DNA of 64,000 bases from an actinobacterium LLX17 (lineage in GTDB: Bacteria; Actinomycetota; Actinomycetes; Propionibacteriales; Nocardioidaceae), in the NCBI GenBank assembly GCA_000471045.1, contig KI301992.1, positions 1,992,060-2,056,059 on the forward strand. Reading direction: 5' to 3'. This document shows positions 3,267-33,850 of the stretch, in pieces. Every line of letters starts with the position of its first letter. The stretch's first letter is position 1. The translations under genes were made by a program, and so were the position numbers. The notes under the pieces were generated by a model. That model did not search any database. It was given only the letters and a program-made list of their open reading frames with translations, and was not told the origin of the DNA.

Positions 3267-3989
3267 TCAGGCCTCCAGTCCGAGGAAGATGGCCCACGGC
3301 GGCATCAGGAAGCCGAGCGTGATGACCAGGGTGACGACGACGGCCAGGCCGGTGAGTCGCGAGTCGATGCGGTTGGACGAGCGGTTCTGGCCGAGCGTGG
3401 TGAGCGCGCTCCAGATGCCGTGCCACAGGTGGAAGCCGACGGCGAGCATCGCGATCGTGTAGGCCACCACGACGTACCAGATCTCGAACCCGTTGACGAC
3501 GCGCTCGTACGGGCTGTCGGAGGCGCCGCCCGGAGCGATGTCGTTCGTGGTCAGGTGCAGCAGGTGGTAGACGATGAACGCCAGGACGACGAGGCCGCCC
3601 CACCGCATCGTGAAAGAGGCGTAGCTGCGCTGGATGCCCGTGCGGTTCTTCTTGGAGTAGTACCGGCGCGCACCGCGGACCGCACCGGCCTTGCGGTTGC
3701 GGCGCCACAGCACCACCACGGCGTAGACGTGCACGATGATCGCCGCGAGCAGCACGACGCGCACGATCCAGAGCAGGCCCTCGTAGGGCAGCATCGGCTC
3801 GCCGAAGGTGCGCAGGTGGTGGGCGTACTCGTCGAACGCCTCCTTGCCCGCGAAGACCTTGAGGTTGCCGTACATGTGCAACAGGAGGTAGCCGATCATG
3901 ATCAGACCGGAGACCGCCATCGCGTACTTGAGCGCGACCGTCGACCGAGAGGCCGGGACTCGCTTCTTCGTCGGAGATGAAGTCACCAC
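3267..3989 (-). CDS. sdhC: Succinate dehydrogenase cytochrome b-type membrane anchor
   Basis: Single-polypeptide haem anchor of type-B complex II (b558 family), 240 residues with about five transmembrane segments and conserved histidines ([25 protein letters not shown]) suited to ligating two haems. It is the first gene of the sdhCAB operon. There is no separate SdhD, as expected for this class. The GTG start sits six bases after a TACGGT box, so the message is probably leaderless; a second GTG three bases on is an alternative start. Confidence 0.93.
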
Positions 3990-3995
3990 GGGGCC

Positions 3996-4001
3996 ACCGT
4001 A
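3996..4001 (-). promoter_or_regulatory. Leaderless -10 box of sdhCAB
   Basis: TACGGT is followed by six bases and the GTG of sdhC, the spacing expected when transcription begins at the start codon. No Shine-Dalgarno is visible. Confidence 0.55.
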
Positions 4002-4029
4002 GGACCTTTTGACGATTCACGCTAAGTCC

Positions 4030-4046
4030 GCATGAGGCTTGCTTTC
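4030..4046. promoter_or_regulatory. Candidate LysR operator between sdhC and the LysR gene
   Basis: An interrupted palindrome ATGA-N9-TCAT lies in the 86-base divergent intergenic region, about 30 bases upstream of the LysR start. The position suits autoregulation and control of sdhCAB. The arms are short (4 bp), so support is modest. Confidence 0.35.
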
Positions 4047-4075
4047 ATAGCCAACGGGCATGGGAGGATGGAGGC

Positions 4076-4951
4076 GTGCAGATCCAGCAGCTCGGCTACT
4101 TCGTCGCGGTGGCCCGCACGCGGCACTTCACCCGCGCCGCGGAGCTCACCGGTGTGTCGCAGCCCAGCCTCTCCAAGCAGATCCGGGTGCTGGAGAACTC
4201 GCTCGGCACACCCCTGTTCGTGCGCAACCGCGGGGCCATCGAGCTGACCAGCGCCGGCGAGGCCCTGCTCCCCCACGCGCAGCGCATCCTCATCGACGTC
4301 GAGGGCGCACAGAAGGCCGTCCACGAGGTGGCCGGTCTGCGCCGCGGACGCGTGCGCCTGGGGGCCACGCCGTCGTTGTGCGACGGCCTGCTGCCCGACG
4401 TGCTGACGACCTTCCACCGGCGGCACCCCGACATCGACCTCGAGATCCAGGAGGCCGGGTCGCAGCTGCTGACCCGCGAGCTGGAGCAAGGCCGGCTCGA
4501 CATCGCACTGCACATCGTGCCCCTGCACGGCGACCCCCGCGACATCGTGACCACCGAGCTGCTCGACGAGGAGCTGGTGCTGGCCAGTCCACCGGACTCG
4601 ACCCTGCCCGACCAGATCCGGCTGGCCGAGCTGTGCGACCTGCCGCTCGTGATGTTCCGCGACGGCTACGACCTGCGCGAGGTGACGCTGGCGGCGTGCC
4701 ACGAGGCCGGGTTCGAGCCGCGGCTCGCGATCGAGGGCGGCGAGATGAGCGCGGTGCTGCGCTTCGTCGAGGCCGGTCTGGGACACGCCGTGGTGCCCGA
4801 GATGGTCATGGCCACCCGCCCCAACCTGCAGGCGTCACGTCTCGAGGACCCCGTGCTGCGCCGCACCATCGGCATCTCGCACCGGACCGAGGCGACCCTC
4901 CCCCTGGCCGCCCGCGCGTTCCGCGACGACCTGCTCGACCACCTGCGCTAG
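4076..4951 (+). CDS. LysR-family transcriptional regulator, divergent from sdhCAB
   Basis: 291 residues with the classic N-terminal winged helix-turn-helix (MQIQQLGYFVAVARTRHFTRAAELTGVSQPSLSKQIRVLE) and a two-lobed effector-binding domain from about residue 90. The GTG start has GGAGG one base upstream and also a GAGGAT box six bases upstream. Its divergent placement next to sdhC suggests it controls succinate dehydrogenase; that target is inferred from position. The effector is unknown. Confidence 0.9.
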   Translation: MQIQQLGYFVAVARTRHFTRAAELTGVSQPSLSKQIRVLENSLGTPLFVRNRGAIELTSAGEALLPHAQRILIDVEGAQKAVHEVAGLRRGRVRLGATPSLCDGLLPDVLTTFHRRHPDIDLEIQEAGSQLLTRELEQGRLDIALHIVPLHGDPRDIVTTELLDEELVLASPPDSTLPDQIRLAELCDLPLVMFRDGYDLREVTLAACHEAGFEPRLAIEGGEMSAVLRFVEAGLGHAVVPEMVMATRPNLQASRLEDPVLRRTIGISHRTEATLPLAARAFRDDLLDHLR

Positions 4952-4961
4952 GTGGGGGGCG

Positions 4962-5474
4962 CTAGCTGAGCGGGAAGCTGTGGCGCGGGGTCCAGCCCGC
5001 GCCGTCCTCGTGCACGTAGAGGCAGACCGCGTCGACGGTGAACTCGCACCGGAAGTCGGCCAGCTCGTCGTAGGCGCGGTCGAGCGCGGGCTCGGCCACC
5101 TCCTGCGCCACCGTCACGTGCGGGTGGAACGGAAAGCGTGGCTGCTCGACCTGGAGCCGCTCACGGACGGCCTCGGCCAGCCGCTCGGTCTCGGCGATGC
5201 CCTTGCTGACCGCCACGAAGACGACGGGCGAGACGGGCCGGAACGTGCCGGTGCCCTTCAGCGCCATGTCGAAGGACGACGTGCCGCAGACGGCGTCCGT
5301 CAGTGCCTCGCACACGCCGGCCAGCCCGGCCTCGTCGGTCTCGGTGGGCGGCACGAGTGTCACGTGGGTCGGCACCGAGGCGGCCTGGGGGTCACCGAAC
5401 CCGGCACGGCACCCCCGCAGGTGGCTGCCGTGCGGCTCGGGCACCGCGATGGCGACCCCGTACGTCAACGTCAT
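4962..5474 (-). CDS. 2'-5' RNA ligase / cyclic phosphodiesterase family protein
   Basis: The two HxT signatures of the 2H phosphoesterase fold are present (THVTLVPP near the N-terminus and HPHVTVAQ in the second half). These enzymes act on 2'-5' linkages or 2',3'-cyclic phosphates in RNA; the physiological substrate here is unknown. I chose the ATG at 5474 because a GGAGGG/GAGGGT purine run sits just before it. A second in-frame ATG at 5501 overlaps the trpS stop (ATGA) and would add nine residues. It follows trpS in the same transcription unit. Confidence 0.85.
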   Translation of the reverse strand: MTLTYGVAIAVPEPHGSHLRGCRAGFGDPQAASVPTHVTLVPPTETDEAGLAGVCEALTDAVCGTSSFDMALKGTGTFRPVSPVVFVAVSKGIAETERLAEAVRERLQVEQPRFPFHPHVTVAQEVAEPALDRAYDELADFRCEFTVDAVCLYVHEDGAGWTPRHSFPLS

Positions 5475-5497
5475 CGGCCCACCCTCACCCTCCAACG

Positions 5498-6535
5498 TCA
5501 TCGGGGAGCGACGAAGCCGGAGCGGTCGTAGACGGCCGCCAGGGTCTCGGCGGCGACCTCGCGGGCCCGCTCGGCGCCGGCCGCGAGCACGCGGTCGAGC
5601 TCGGCGCGGTCGTCGAGCAGGGCCCGGGTGCGGTCACCGAACGACTGCACGAAGTCGCCCACCAGCTCGCCGAGGTCGACCTTGAGGTGGCCGTACTGCT
5701 TGTCGGCGTACTCGGTCTCGAGCGACTCGATCGTGCGATCGGTCAGCGCGGCGTAGATCGACAGCAGGTTGGAGATGCCGGGCTTGGACTCGCGGTCGAA
5801 GCGGATCTCGGTGCCAGAGTCGGTCATCGCCGAGCGGATCTTCTTCGCCGCCTGCTTCGCGGTGTCGTCGAGATCGACCACTCCGGCGTGCGACGGGTTC
5901 GACCCGCTCATCTTGGCCGTGGGGTCCTGCAGGTCGTAGATCTTGGCGGTCGCCTTGACGATGTGCGCCTGGGGCACCGTGAACGTCTCACCGAAGCGGT
6001 GGTTGAACCGTTGCGCGAGATTGCGGGTGAGCTCGACGTGCTGGCGCTGGTCCTCGCCGACCGGCACCTTGTCGGCCTGGTAGACGAGGATGTCGGCCGC
6101 CATGAGGATCGGGTAGGTGAACAGGCCCACGCTCGAGGCGTCCTGACCGCCCTTGGCGCTCTTGTCCTTGAACTGCGTCATGCGCGACGCCTCACCGAAG
6201 CCGGTGATGCCGCCCAGCACCCACGCCAGCTGGGCGTGCTCGGGCACGTGGCTCTGCACGAACAGGGCGCTGCGCGCAGGGTCGACGCCCGCTGCCAGCA
6301 GCTGCGCAGCCGCGATGTAGGTGCGCTCCCGCAGCTGCGCCGGGTCGTACTCGACCGTGATGGCATGCAGGTCGGGGATGAAGTAGAACGCCTCGAAGTC
6401 GTCCTGCAGGGCGACCCACTGCCGGAACGCGCCGAAGTAGTTGCCGAGGTGGTAGGAGTCCGCGGTCGGCTGCGCGCCGGAGAGGACACGCTCGCGCCGA
6501 CCGGTGCTCGACGGATGGGGGGAAGCGTCGGACAT
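5498..6535 (-). CDS. trpS: Tryptophanyl-tRNA synthetase
   Basis: Class I aminoacyl-tRNA synthetase charging tRNA-Trp, about 345 residues. Near the N-terminus is [20 protein letters not shown], the HIGH-type region of Trp[13 protein letters not shown] is the KMSKS-type loop, in the KMS-G variant seen in many TrpRS. The start at 6535 ([10 protein letters not shown]) precedes the conserved domain by ~20 residues. ATGs at 6544 and 6547 are alternatives, the latter overlapping the fdhD stop. It lies downstream of fdhD and upstream of the RNA ligase-like gene, all apparently coupled. Confidence 0.96.
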
Positions 6536-28016: not shown

Positions 28017-28020
<4 letters not shown>

Positions 28021-28661
28021 GCGGGGTCCTTCCGGGGACTGATGACGTGGCGGCCGTCGACCGTGAAGCCGTCGCGGGCGAGTCGGCCGACCCACTCGAC
28101 GAGCATGCCGCGCTCGCTGGACTTGATGCGTTCGTGCAGGGACTCGACGTCGTCGTCGGGCAGCACCGGGACAGCGACCTGCGCCACGATCGGGCCCGTG
28201 TCGACGCCGGCGTCGACGACGAACAACGTGGCACCTGTGACCTTGACGCCGTGCGCCAGGGCGTCGGCCGGCGCGTGCATGCCGGGGAACGCGGGCGACA
28301 ACGCCGGATGCGTGTTGACCGTGCGTCCACCGAACCGCTCGAGGAACTGCGCACCGGCCAGCTTCATGAAGCCGGCCAGCACCACGAGGGCGGGCCCGTG
28401 CCGCGCCACCTCGTCGGCCAGCGCGGCGTCCCAGGCGGACCGATCGGCGAAGTCAGCGGTGCGCAGCACGAAGGTCTCGATGCCGTGCCGCTCGGCCCGC
28501 GCGAGGGCCTCGATGTCGTGCCGGTCGGCCCCGACGGCGGCGATGCGGACCCCGTAGGCGGGGTCGTCGGCCGCGTCGATCAGGGCCTGCAGGTTGGTGC
28601 CGCTGCCGGAGACGAGGACGACGATCGGCGTCGCGTCAGGATCCGGTGGCACGGCCCCCAC
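28017..28661 (-). CDS. purN: Phosphoribosylglycinamide formyltransferase
   Basis: 10-formyl-THF-dependent GAR transformylase, 214 residues. It opens with [18 protein letters not shown] (phosphate-binding loop) and contains [31 protein letters not shown] with the catalytic Asn-His pair, plus [10 protein letters not shown] with the catalytic Asp. It overlaps the upstream PerM-like gene by 26 bases and purH by four. Confidence 0.96.
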
Positions 28662-29808
28662 GATAGTGGGCCAGCACGGCGCCGATCGCGGCGGCCACGG
28701 CCATGACGGGCACCACCCGCAGCAGGGGGAGCAGACCGTCGGGTCCGACCTCGCTCATGCGCCCCGGCCCGACCGATCCGCCGGAGAGCCAGACCAGCAC
28801 CGTCAGCGCCAGGGCACCGACGCCGCCGGCGACGGCCGCCACACCGACGCCTCGCCAGAAGTCGGTGCCGGTGTCGACGTGGCCGCGGCGGACGAGGCGC
28901 CACCCGGCGACCAAGGCCGCGATCGCGGGCACGAGCCCCAGCAGGAACGTCCAGGCCGGCAGGTCCCCCGGGGACGGCAGGGCCGCCAGCACCGGGAGTC
29001 CCGGGACCTCCCCGAGGTTGGCGGCCGTGAGGTCGACCGAGGTGTCGCTGCCGACACGGAAGCCGGGCCCCATCAGCGCTGACGCCGCCCAGAGCGCCAG
29101 GGTCGGCACGAGCAGCACGCAGGCCGCCGCCAGGACGATGCCCCCGCCGAACCCGGGATCGAGCAGCGCCCAGAGTCGGCCGGCGCGCTCGACGTGCAGC
29201 GCGAGCAGCACGACGACCAGCGCCAGCGACGTGACCAGCACCGCCACCACCGCCGTGCCGGCGCCACGGACGACCGCCCGCAGCTCCGGCTGGTCCTGCG
29301 GCCACCAGGCATCGGGGACCCCCTGAGCCACGACGTACCCCAGGGCCGCAGCCACCCCCACGACGACGAAGGCCATGAACGCGGCGCGGACGAACGGGAC
29401 CGACGCGTCGCCCGTGCTGGTGACGGCGGCGACGACAGCCGCCAGGACCCCGTAGGTCCCCGCAGCGGTCGCGGCGAACGCGGCGGGCTCGGCCACCGGG
29501 TCGCGCACCACCCGCCGGGTCGCGAGGACGACGAGGCCGATCACCAGGGCGACGGTGCCCCACGGGACGACGGTGATCGCGACGCCCTCGGCCTCCAGGC
29601 CGGTGCCGTGGGCGACGAGCCAGACCTGCGACGCGGCCCGTGCGGTGGACGGCGAGGGCCCGCCACCGCCTCCGGCCCACACGGCCAGCACCGCGAGGAC
29701 CCACCCCGCGACGGCGGCGGAAGCGGCGACCAGGAAACCGGGCCAGACGGACGAACCGGAGGCACTGGAGACGGCACTGGAAGCGGGGAACCGAGGAGCA
29801 GCGGGCAC
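28636..29808 (-). CDS. PerM-like/DUF6350 polytopic membrane protein
   Basis: A 390-residue membrane protein with about nine to ten hydrophobic segments, beginning WPGFLVAASAAVAGWVLAVLAVW. A gene encoding such a protein sits just before purN in many actinobacteria; the mycobacterial version (PerM) has been linked to cell division and persistence. The family call rests on position and hydropathy more than on motifs. The GTG at 29808 is preceded by GGGAGG. It shares a short promoter region with the divergent sigma-like gene. Confidence 0.75.
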   Translation of the reverse strand: MPAAPRFPASSAVSSASGSSVWPGFLVAASAAVAGWVLAVLAVWAGGGGGPSPSTARAASQVWLVAHGTGLEAEGVAITVVPWGTVALVIGLVVLATRRVVRDPVAEPAAFAATAAGTYGVLAAVVAAVTSTGDASVPFVRAAFMAFVVVGVAAALGYVVAQGVPDAWWPQDQPELRAVVRGAGTAVVAVLVTSLALVVVLLALHVERAGRLWALLDPGFGGGIVLAAACVLLVPTLALWAASALMGPGFRVGSDTSVDLTAANLGEVPGLPVLAALPSPGDLPAWTFLLGLVPAIAALVAGWRLVRRGHVDTGTDFWRGVGVAAVAGGVGALALTVLVWLSGGSVGPGRMSEVGPDGLLPLLRVVPVMAVAAAIGAVLAHYRGGRATGS

Positions 29809-29831: not shown

Positions 29832-29876
29832 TGCGGCGTCGCTCAGAGCCACGCCGACTCGGTCAGGAGGCACACG

Positions 29877-31700
29877 ATGACGCGAGTCGACGAGTTCGAC
29901 AGCTTCTACCGGTCGACCTCCGAGTCCGCCCTGCGGGTGGTGTACGCCGTCACAGGCGACCGCACGGTGGCCCACGACGTGACGGTCGACGCCTACCGGC
30001 GCGCCTGGCGCGACTGGTCCAAGATTCGCGACCACGATCCCGTCCGCTACGTGCGGTCCGAGGCCTGGAAGCTCGCCGTGCTCAGCCGCGGCACGCACCC
30101 GCTGCGCCGCCGCCACGAGGAGGACTCCGACACCGAGCTGCTCGACGCGCTCGCGTCGCTCCCCTCGGACGACCGGCGCCTCGTCGTGCTCATGACGCTC
30201 GGCAGCACCGACCTCGACGAGGCCGCCGCCGAGGTCGGGGTCAGTGACGAGGAGGGCATCGAGCTCGTCACCACGGCCATCACGGCGCTCGAGGCCTCCA
30301 CGGGCCAGTCGATCGACGAGCTCGAGCGCCGGATGAACGCCCTCGGGGCGGTCACCAGCCGCCTCACGATGCCCCCGTCGGCCGACATCCGGCAGAAGGC
30401 CGTCCGCGGACAGCGTCGCAACACGGTCGGGCTGGTGCTCGCCGCGCTGGTCGCGATCGTGGCCGGCGGCCTCGTGGTCACGGAGGGCGATCCGCTCGCG
30501 GCCGTGGCCGGAGTCCCCTATCGCGAGCGTCTCGGCGCCGAGAGTCCCGACCTCGTGCTGGACTCGCGCCAGATCGACACCGACAACCTGCTCACGACCT
30601 CCCAGGTGTCGCGTCTCGCTCCCGACGGCGACTGGGCCGTCGGCGACACCGACGAGAACATCGCCGACGACACGCCGTACGCGACGTGCCCGACCCAGCG
30701 CTTCGCCACCGAGAACCCCGTCAAGGTCTTCGTCCGCACCTTCGAGTCCGCGGGCAGCGACCGCGTGGCCCAGGCGATCGAGGTGGCCGGCAGCCCCGCC
30801 GAGGCCGAGGCCGCCTACCAGCGGCTCGTGAGCTGGTACGCCGACTGCGCTCACCCCCGCGTCCAGCTGACCGAGACCTACCGGGTCGAGCGCCCCTTCG
30901 GCGACTTCCTGATCCTGCGCCTCGTGTCGCACCGCTCCCCCGAGCGCACGTTCACGGTCGGCTTCAGCTACTCCGGCACCGTGGCGAGCGCCCTCGTGCA
31001 CGAGGTCGACGGTCTCACCGGTCCGCCGATCGAGGAGTTCGCCCAGACCCTCAACGACTCCGTCGAGCGGGTGTGCGCCGACAGTGGCGGCAACTGCCGC
31101 GAGGACATCACCGTCATCCCGACCGATCCGCCGGCCACGTCCGAGGCGCCGTCCTTCCTCGGCATCGTCGACCTGCCGCCCATCGCCGCGGTCGACCAGG
31201 TCTGGGCCGGCACGACGCCGTCGACCGACTCGTCGGCCAACCCCGCCTCCACGGTCTGCGATCGCGCCTCGTTCGCGATCGAGGGGGTGTCGTCCTCGTC
31301 GCGCATCTACCTGATCCCGGAGGCCGAGACCCTGCCGGTCACCTTCGGTGTCGTCGAGACGGTCGGCACGTTCCCGACCGTCGAGGCCGCCACCGGGTTC
31401 GTCGACGGCGTGCAGGCCACGATCAACGCGTGCAGTGCCGACAACCTCGCCGCCACGGCGACACCCGGCGACGGGTTCGGCGCCGGACCCGACTTCCGTG
31501 GCTCGACGTGGCAGATCACCCTCGAGGTCGAGGGCGGCGCCCCGGTGACGTTCCGCACCGCCATCGTCCAGCGCGGCGCGGCCGTCGCCCAGGTGCTGTT
31601 CACGCCCAGCGGCGAGGCCGACATCTCGCCGCAGCAGTTCACCGCGCTGGCCCAGCGGGCCGCGCAGCGCCTCGTCTACGCCGGAGCGCCGGTCGCCTGA
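29877..31700 (+). CDS. Membrane-anchored degenerate ECF-sigma-like protein with tandem extracytoplasmic domains
   Basis: A 607-residue protein I do not recognise as a named family. Residues ~5-66 resemble region 2 of SigE-type ECF sigma factors (FYRSTSESALRVVYAVTGD...RRAWRDWSKIRDHDP). Residues ~88-140 resemble region 4 (LASLPSDDRRLVVLM...DEAAAEVGVS), but the expected recognition helix is acidic (SDEEGIELV), so DNA binding is doubtful. One membrane segment follows (~183-202). Then come two extracytoplasmic halves, ~215-410 and ~425-607, with cysteines at 271/324/400/407 and 461/519, reminiscent of PknH-type sensor domains. This suggests a fused signalling protein. Convergent with sucD across a strong hairpin. 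Confidence 0.7.
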   Translation: MTRVDEFDSFYRSTSESALRVVYAVTGDRTVAHDVTVDAYRRAWRDWSKIRDHDPVRYVRSEAWKLAVLSRGTHPLRRRHEEDSDTELLDALASLPSDDRRLVVLMTLGSTDLDEAAAEVGVSDEEGIELVTTAITALEASTGQSIDELERRMNALGAVTSRLTMPPSADIRQKAVRGQRRNTVGLVLAALVAIVAGGLVVTEGDPLAAVAGVPYRERLGAESPDLVLDSRQIDTDNLLTTSQVSRLAPDGDWAVGDTDENIADDTPYATCPTQRFATENPVKVFVRTFESAGSDRVAQAIEVAGSPAEAEAAYQRLVSWYADCAHPRVQLTETYRVERPFGDFLILRLVSHRSPERTFTVGFSYSGTVASALVHEVDGLTGPPIEEFAQTLNDSVERVCADSGGNCREDITVIPTDPPATSEAPSFLGIVDLPPIAAVDQVWAGTTPSTDSSANPASTVCDRASFAIEGVSSSSRIYLIPEAETLPVTFGVVETVGTFPTVEAATGFVDGVQATINACSADNLAATATPGDGFGAGPDFRGSTWQITLEVEGGAPVTFRTAIVQRGAAVAQVLFTPSGEADISPQQFTALAQRAAQRLVYAGAPVA

Positions 31701-31760: not shown

Positions 31761-32672
31761 TCAGAGCGTCTTCAAGATCTCGCGCATGAGCTCGGCGGTC
31801 TCGGACGGCGTCTTGCCGACCTTGACCCCGGCGGCCTCGAGGGCCTCCTTCTTGCCCTGCGCGGTGCCCGCGCCGTCGGAGACGATGGCGCCGGCGTGGC
31901 CCATCGTCTTGCCCTCGGGAGCGGTGAAGCCGGCCACGTAGCCCACGACCGGCTTGGTGACGTTGGCCTGGATGTAGGCCGCAGCCTTCTCCTCGGCGTC
32001 GCCACCGATCTCGCCGATCATGACGATGGCCTTCGTCTCCGGATCGGCCTCGAACGCCTCGAGGGCGTCGATGTGGGTGGTGCCGATGATCGGGTCACCA
32101 CCGATGCCGATGGCCGTCGAGAAGCCGAAGTCACGCAGCTCGAACATCATCTGGTAGGTCAGGGTGCCCGACTTCGACACCAGACCGATCGGCCCCTTGC
32201 CGGCGATGTTCGCCGGCGTGATGCCCGCGAGCGCCTCGCCCGGCGTGATGATGCCGGGGCAGTTCGGGCCGATGATGCGCGTCTTCTTGCCCTCTGCTGC
32301 CTTGCTCTGGGCGTAGGCCCAGAACTCCGCGGAGTCCTGCACCGGCACGCCCTCGGTGATGATGACGAGCAGACCGATCTCGGCGTCGATGGCCTCGATC
32401 ACGGCGTCCTTGGTGAACGCCGGCGGGACGAACGCGACGGAGACGTCGGCGCCCGTCTTCTCGATGGCCTCGGCGACCGATGCGAAGACCGGCAGCTCGA
32501 CCTCGGCGCCGGAGGCGTCGGAGTGGGTGACGGTCGTGCCGGCCTTGCGGGCGTTGACGCCGCCCACGATGTTGGTGCCGGCCGCCAGCATGCGGGCGGT
32601 GTGCTTGGAGCCCTCACCGCCGGTGATGCCCTGGACGATGACCTTGGAGTCCTTGGTCAGGAAGATCGACAT
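31761..32672 (-). CDS. sucD: Succinyl-CoA synthetase (ADP-forming) alpha subunit
   Basis: Alpha subunit, 303 residues, interconverting succinyl-CoA and succinate with substrate-level phosphorylation. It has the CoA-binding Rossmann start ([20 protein letters not shown]), the [13 protein letters not shown] segment, and the active-site histidine in [21 protein letters not shown], which is phosphorylated in catalysis. The ATG at 32672 begins [13 protein letters not shown]. It lies 11 bases after sucC. Confidence 0.97.
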
Positions 32673-32683
32673 GTGAAGCCCCT

Positions 32684-33850
32684 TCAGCCGTTCGCCAGCT
32701 CGGCGGCCTTGTCGGCCGCTCCGTCCATGGTGTCCACCTGGGTCACGAGCGGGTGGTTCAGCTCGTCCAGGATCGCGCGCCCCTCGTCGACGTTGTTGCC
32801 GTCGAGGCGCACCACGAGCGGCTTGCTGGCGTCGTCGCCGAGCAGCTCGAGGGCACCCTTGATGCCGTTCGCGACCGCGTCGCACGACGTGATGCCGCCG
32901 AAGACGTTGACGAACACGCTCTTGACCTGCTCGTCGCCCAGGATGACGTCGAGGCCGTTGGCCATGACCTCCGCCGAGGCGCCGCCGCCGATGTCGAGGA
33001 AGTTGGCCGGCTTGACGTTGCCGTGCTTCTCACCGGCGTACGCGACGACGTCGAGGGTGCTCATGACGAGTCCCGCGCCGTTGCCGATGATGCCGACCTC
33101 GCCGTCGAGCTTGACGTAGTTGAGGCCCTTGGCCTTGGCCTTCGCCTCGAGCGGGTCGTCCTCCTCGTGGATGACGAAGTCCTCGTGCTCGGGGTGACGC
33201 ACCTCGGAGGCGTTGTCGTCGAGCGAGACCTTGCCGTCGAGGGCGTCGAGCTTGTCGCCCTCGAGGCGGGCGAGGGGGTTGACCTCGACCAGCGTCGCGT
33301 CCTCCTCGACGAAGACCTTCCAGAGGGCCTGGACCATCTCGACGGCCTGCTCGGCGAGCTCGGCCGGAAAACCGACCTCCTCGACGATCGAGCGGGCCTT
33401 GGCCTCGTCGACCCCGGTGCCGGGGTCGATGGCGATCTTCTTGACGGCGTCGGGGTTGGTCTTGGCGACCTCCTCGATCTCCACACCGCCCTCGATGCTC
33501 GCGATGCACAGGTAGCTGCGGTTCGAGCGGTCCAGCAGGAAGGAGAAGTAGTACTCCTCGACCGGCGGGGTCGCGGGAACGACCAGCACGCGGTTGACCG
33601 TGAGGTCCTTGATCTCCATGCCGAGGATGTTCGACGCGTGCTCGTAGGCCTCGTCGGCGGTCTTGGCGATCTTGACGCCGCCGGCCTTGCCGCGGCCTCC
33701 AGCCTTGACCTGAGCCTTGATGACGGTGACGCCACCCATCTGCTCGGCAGCGGCCTTCGCCTCGTCGGCGGTCTGCGCGACGACGCCGAGCGTCGTCGTG
33801 ACTCCATGCTTGGCGAAGAGCTCCTTCGCCTGGTACTCCATCAGATCCAC
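32684..33850 (-). CDS. sucC: Succinyl-CoA synthetase beta subunit
   Basis: Beta subunit, 388 residues, with the ATP-grasp fold. Motifs include [45 protein letters not shown] and the C-terminal [13 protein letters not shown] with the CoA-side power helix. I take the GTG at 33850 ([16 protein letters not shown]), since actinobacterial SucC usually begins MDLxEYQ and AAGGA lies ten bases upstream; the ATG three codons later is the alternative. Forms an operon with sucD. Confidence 0.96.

Follow-up and report, generated by a model that had tools for sequence, protein, structure and literature searches.

The window analyzed here, a 64,000-nucleotide stretch from the single-contig, 3.0-Mb genome of a soil bacterium, an Aeromicrobium (G000; family Nocardioidaceae), contains a gene on the forward strand (29877–31700) for a 607-residue membrane-tethered pseudo-sigma factor. 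The frame opens with an ATG, preceded by an AGGAGG ribosome-binding site (29865–29870, same strand). We confirmed that it is a real gene whose product is laid out as a sigma fold followed by a cytoplasmic segment, a single membrane helix and a pair of ectodomains. From the N-terminus, the protein comprises a sigma region 2-like domain (residues 1–70; 29877–30086), which lacks the VSRWR block of region 2.4, a short linker (residues 71–86, RGTHPLRRRHEEDSDT; 30087–30134) whose basic motif is conserved across the genus, and a sigma region 4-like domain (residues 87–145; 30135–30311) that includes the former recognition helix (residues 124–142; 30246–30302). This short linker takes the place of region 2.4 and the longer linker of canonical factors. 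The following segment (residues 146–184; 30312–30428) matches the cytoplasmic part of separate membrane partners in profile comparisons, and leads into a transmembrane segment at about residues 185–203 (30429–30485) with its positive side inside; a helix is predicted for residues 168–199. Outside the membrane, ectodomain 1 (residues 226–402; 30552–31082) and ectodomain 2 (residues 421–604; 31137–31688) each have a PknH-sensor-like fold, and all six cysteines of the protein lie past the membrane helix.

All neighboring genes named here are on the reverse strand. Upstream and divergent lies a gene for a DUF6350 membrane protein (28636–29808; Pfam DUF6350, 1.1e-66), followed by the locus marker purN (28017–28661) and by purH. 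Downstream, sucD (31761–32885) is convergent, its end separated by 60 bases from that of the pseudo-sigma gene. Thus sucD comes directly after the gene, and no sigma or anti-sigma gene adjoins it in the window.

Structure prediction gave an extracytoplasmic function (ECF) sigma fold, with both region 2 and region 4, for residues 1–145. A preliminary description, made from the sequence alone, had read ECF-like regions 2 and 4 at the N-terminus, one transmembrane segment near residues 183–202 and two cysteine-bearing PknH-like outer domains; each was recovered, including the sigma-like fold within residues 1–150 on which that reading depended. The family models match below their cut-offs. The SigE-family model TIGR02983 (NCBIfam) scored 50.2 bits against a curated 141.55, a score also missed by all 20 hits in the window genome, and PF14032 (PknH_C) scored 22.5 bits against the curated Pfam score of 27, while the PknH sensor fold itself is present. 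Structural alignments of the two ectodomains to the PknH sensor domain had identities of 12% and 18%; with Foldseek alone, one of 1112 matches reached an E value of 0.001 or less.

The fusion is conserved well beyond the window genome. The full-length protein was found in 34 of 37 Aeromicrobium genomes, the window genome included, and in one of the 34 the match comes as two pieces within the same frame; two of the remaining genomes are incomplete and gave no match, and one has fragments. Among 149 sampled genomes of the family, 134 have a match, and at least 124 of these have the sigma module; among the matches listed, ten family genomes are without it, some of them broken or at contig ends. 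We fetched 126 loci, a non-random set in which odd ones were sought out on purpose. In 109 the module and the membrane part are fused in one frame, in two (L047 and L048) the module lies in a different frame or beyond an N gap, eight family loci are without the module (seven of these have upstream DNA and one stops at a contig end), and seven loci are from outside the family. An assembly join, which had been a concern with a decayed sigma module and two ectodomains in a single chain, was ruled out since genomes made up of one contig carry the fusion intact. At the same locus, membrane proteins without the module were seen in f3 and f2 (three loci each), and also in L049–L054 and L056 from the family genera g12, g15 and g19, where its absence is probably a secondary loss. 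L047 (G101, 3814–5767), on a 4.9-Mb contig, has the sigma module and membrane part in two overlapping frames, from either a frameshift or a true split. None of the five sampled genomes of genus g30 matched the protein at an E value of 1e-10.

The sigma module has lost the residues with which ECF factors contact the promoter and the core enzyme. We compared 111 modules of the family with 21 intact sigma factors, a narrow reference set (20 encoded downstream of the fusion in the family, and one from f4). The SRWR tryptophan is found in none of the modules and in all 21 intact factors, and all five residues of VSRWR are gapped in 105 of the 111. The core-binding glutamine of the ExxQ/DxxQ motif, replaced by V37 in the window protein, is kept in 3 modules compared with 21 of 21 intact factors. 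A lysine of the recognition helix is likewise absent from every module and present in every intact factor, and the mean net charge of the helix is −2.04 in the modules compared with +3.19; in the window protein, whose acidic helix was noted at the outset, the net charge is −4 over the motif columns. The stretch between regions 2 and 4 has a median of 32 residues in the modules and 44 in the intact factors. Retained are the acidic residue beside the lost glutamine (99 of 111), R60 and R100 (111 each) and W47 (110). By eye, the sigma factors of f12, f23, f36 and f43 agree with the intact set, with the exception of the first tandem sigma factors of f23 described below. Having lost its means of reading the −10 and −35 elements, along with the main glutamine for core binding, the sigma half, judged from its sequence, very probably no longer starts transcription.

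Even so decayed, the module is under selection. We estimated the ratio of nonsynonymous to synonymous substitution rates (dN/dS) by a simple counting method in 19 independent close pairs of 75–99% identity. For residues 1–145 the ratio ranged from 0.00 to 0.32, and was lower than that of ectodomain 1 in 18 of the 19 pairs (one tie) and than that of ectodomain 2 in 18; the membrane segment was below the module in some pairs. Constraint is thus stronger on the sigma module than on the ectodomains, and purifying selection keeps the module's fold, which implies that the sigma half does something other than start transcription. In 39 close sequences (38 from Aeromicrobium and one from g22), the mean majority fraction was 0.78 for region 2 (residues 1–68), 0.85 for the short linker (69–86), 0.74 for region 4 and 0.70 for the former recognition helix, while the ectodomains reached 0.72 and 0.62. 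The linker motif RGTHPLRRRHEED (30087–30134), which sits where intact factors have region 2.4, contains R71, H74, R77 and D85, identical in all 39. Model confidence is low there (mean of 55 for the block 71–80), and such a conserved, low-confidence linker might, going by the model, be a flexible binding motif. Many other genera have an RHTARxWHR-like motif in place of the Aeromicrobium basic motif.

The origin of the protein was revealed by the same locus in other families. In a class-wide draw of 197 genomes, 60 matched, including 15 from the window's family, and we fetched loci from 16 of the other 45 as well as from two further f4 genomes. Between sucD and the DUF6350 gene, an intact SigE-type sigma gene was found at nine loci in five other families (f4, three; f12, one; f23, three; f36, one; f43, one; L045 included). 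The gene after the intact sigma encodes a membrane protein in the seven of nine loci where it was read; at L188 and L190 the partner frame was not found with the filter used, and at L186 and L187 such sucD/DUF6350 neighbors were not found. A family profile of residues 138–205 matched a profile of 15 partners, hand-picked and hand-trimmed with one chosen for its motif, over 61 columns (98.4%), and the cytoplasmic part alone still reached 96.5% (P 7e-10), compared with 0.1–1.1% for seven control segments of the same protein. In addition, some matches from other families run across one stop codon from the sigma into the partner segment (G055, 1–182; G046, 4–205; G049, 4–183), as expected of two neighboring genes. 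Since intact sigma genes with separate partners sit at the same locus elsewhere, the window protein is a SigE-type ECF sigma factor fused to its downstream membrane partner. The earlier idea of a single-chain signaling protein thus holds as to the fusion, and is refined to a fused sigma–partner pair.

At two f23 loci (L183 and L184), we observed two tandem sigma/partner pairs. In the first sigma the linker is shortened and the recognition helix altered, perhaps as a step towards decay. A second fusion was found in f22/g59, a Streptomyces-sized genus with 14 matched genomes in the class-wide draw, where all eight fetched loci (L177–L182, L193 and L194) encode a differently decayed sigma fused to one membrane helix and a short tail. 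These loci have sucD and purN in all eight cases and a recognized DUF6350 gene in two, and the one protein scanned gave no Pfam match at E values up to 0.01. In a tree of 66 sequences, 24 of 25 family modules group together (support 92/91, not starred) with L115 outside, the eight modules of the Streptomyces-sized genus group at 100/100, and both tandem f23 sigma factors fall inside one f23 group (92/92); its branches are long, and the fusion may have one origin or several. Possibly the sigma resident at this locus was fused and decayed separately in the window's family and in the Streptomyces-sized genus, which would make a recurrent route from sigma factor to mimic.

From these results, we suggest that the protein is a membrane receptor derived from a sigma–partner fusion, in which the sigma half would serve as a mimic whose binding to a protein partner is governed by the ectodomains; we put this at a probability of about one half. 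The mimic would bind a sigma-binding protein, either an anti-sigma factor or a membrane partner, and the two PknH-like ectodomains would alter its exposure or conformation upon some signal outside the membrane. Capture or release of the partner would then act indirectly on a real sigma factor, freeing or restraining it in the manner of PhyR. More tentatively, the protein might be a transmembrane partner switch in a single chain, in which sensing by the ectodomains exposes or hides the tethered mimic and the mimic captures a membrane partner belonging to a real ECF sigma. At 20 fetched family loci, an intact sigma lies downstream of the fusion on the same strand, its domain starting 102–167 bases after the fusion gene in 13 loci and 955–1484 bases in seven, and at the loci read further (L048, L063, L064 and L065) it is followed by its own membrane partner. 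In loci of this kind the captured partner would be that of the downstream sigma, and this partner is a possible target of the mimic there. No such downstream pair was found at the locus in Aeromicrobium. In the window genome, the neighborhoods of the 8 best of the 20 SigE-type hits were inspected for a partner. At one of them (L200, at ~329 kb), the gene after the sigma encodes a membrane protein that has a similar juxtamembrane motif, DVRRRARRAR; this membrane protein is also a possible target.

A different use of the sigma half would be intramolecular, bound only by segment 146–184 as a plug that relays the conformation of the ectodomains to a cytoplasmic protein outside sigma control, perhaps one of the division proteins near DUF6350/PerM. 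The partner's cytoplasmic segment is indeed still attached, and the DUF6350 gene adjoins divergently in 124 of the 125 loci that have a membrane part (the remaining locus stops at a contig end); PerM of Mycobacterium, which we take to be a DUF6350 member, is described as a modulator of cell division. However, no stretch is less conserved within the genus than residues 146–165, whose mean majority fraction of 0.59 compares with 0.78 for residues 1–68, and this speaks mildly against a purely internal clasp. The dN/dS of residues 146–170 exceeds that of the module in 13 of the 19 pairs (two ties, four below). Neither would be expected of a tight internal interface. We consider the plug unlikely.

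The mimic reading also has to be weighed against uses of the sigma half closer to transcription. The preliminary description had offered a decoy, a polymerase tether or a partner-binding domain; a decoy or partner-binding domain is now the best reading, and a tether is the least favored of the three because the core-binding glutamine is lost as well. Tethering RNA polymerase to the membrane, or titrating the core enzyme, would fit the retained region 2 fold and acidic residue, but the part expected to enter the polymerase is also, at the median, 12 residues shorter, and we regard this as improbable. Decidedly improbable is a still active sigma of changed specificity released by proteolysis, as is known for IutY and expected for ECF48, ECF52 and ECF53: the region 2.4 block, the recognition-helix residues and the core glutamine are lost in nearly all 111 modules, and the zinc-finger segment of ECF48, ECF52 and ECF53 was not found in the window protein (no zinc-finger match in Pfam at E values up to 10). 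As for a passively decaying relic riding along with useful ectodomains, the loss of the promoter-reading residues and the absence of the module from the seven family loci with upstream DNA would be in keeping with it, but its presence in most matched family genomes is not, and the selection result largely refutes it; we give this reading hardly any weight.

Membrane fusions of sigma and anti-sigma, and a sigma mimic, are already known. ECF48, ECF52 (SCO4117), ECF53 and IutY (ECF243) are described as sigma factors fused to membrane anti-sigma segments, with a zinc-finger segment in ECF48, ECF52 and ECF53 (PMC8999054, PMC5826349), and as working sigma factors freed by proteolysis, as shown for IutY and expected for the others (PMC8999054). 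Like these, the window protein has a sigma domain, a cytoplasmic regulatory segment, a membrane helix and an outside part in one chain; unlike them, it has lost the promoter-reading parts, and its outside part consists of two PknH-like domains. PhyR of Alphaproteobacteria, the nearest precedent for the proposed mode of action, has a sigma-like domain with degenerate promoter and core regions that titrates the anti-sigma factor NepR and is switched by a phosphorylated receiver domain (PMC8103513). The window protein shares the ECF fold with such degenerate regions, but its module is tied to a membrane and ectodomains, and no receiver domain was among its Pfam hits at E values up to 10; the NCBIfam PhyR family matched residues 75–146 only (E 0.0079, far under its cut-off). 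In contrast to PknH of Mycobacterium tuberculosis, it has no kinase and carries the sensor fold twice in one chain. Also comparable are the SigE-type sigma and partner of other families, which share the sucD/DUF6350 position and have a homologous sigma domain and partner segment, but are separate genes with an intact sigma. Rv0954 of Mycobacterium was dropped as a counterpart, its gene being on the opposite strand.

In the open-licence PMC papers searched, we found no description of this protein or of a membrane-tethered, degenerate yet constrained sigma–partner fusion. Known membrane sigma fusions are thought to be working sigma factors awaiting proteolysis, whereas PhyR, the known mimic, belongs to the response regulators; a tethered sigma that is degenerate yet selected throughout a family would join the two types and show how a transcription regulator can become a protein-binding signal relay. 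Intact, partly altered and fused states are present at the locus in related genomes, so that the route can be followed. We would guess that such proteins are easily counted as ordinary sigma factors.

In the 125 loci with a membrane part, purN lies beyond the DUF6350 gene in 120 and sucD is convergent and downstream in 104; some of the missing cases are loci cut off too early to include the marker, and none of the three markers is ever on the wrong side or strand. By eye, a TGTAAAGTT-like sequence lies ~50 bases ahead of the start in many Aeromicrobium-like loci (among L001–L038), and in many loci from other genera the ATG is preceded, at a distance of a few bases, by TACCGT or TAATCT, in the manner of leaderless promoters.
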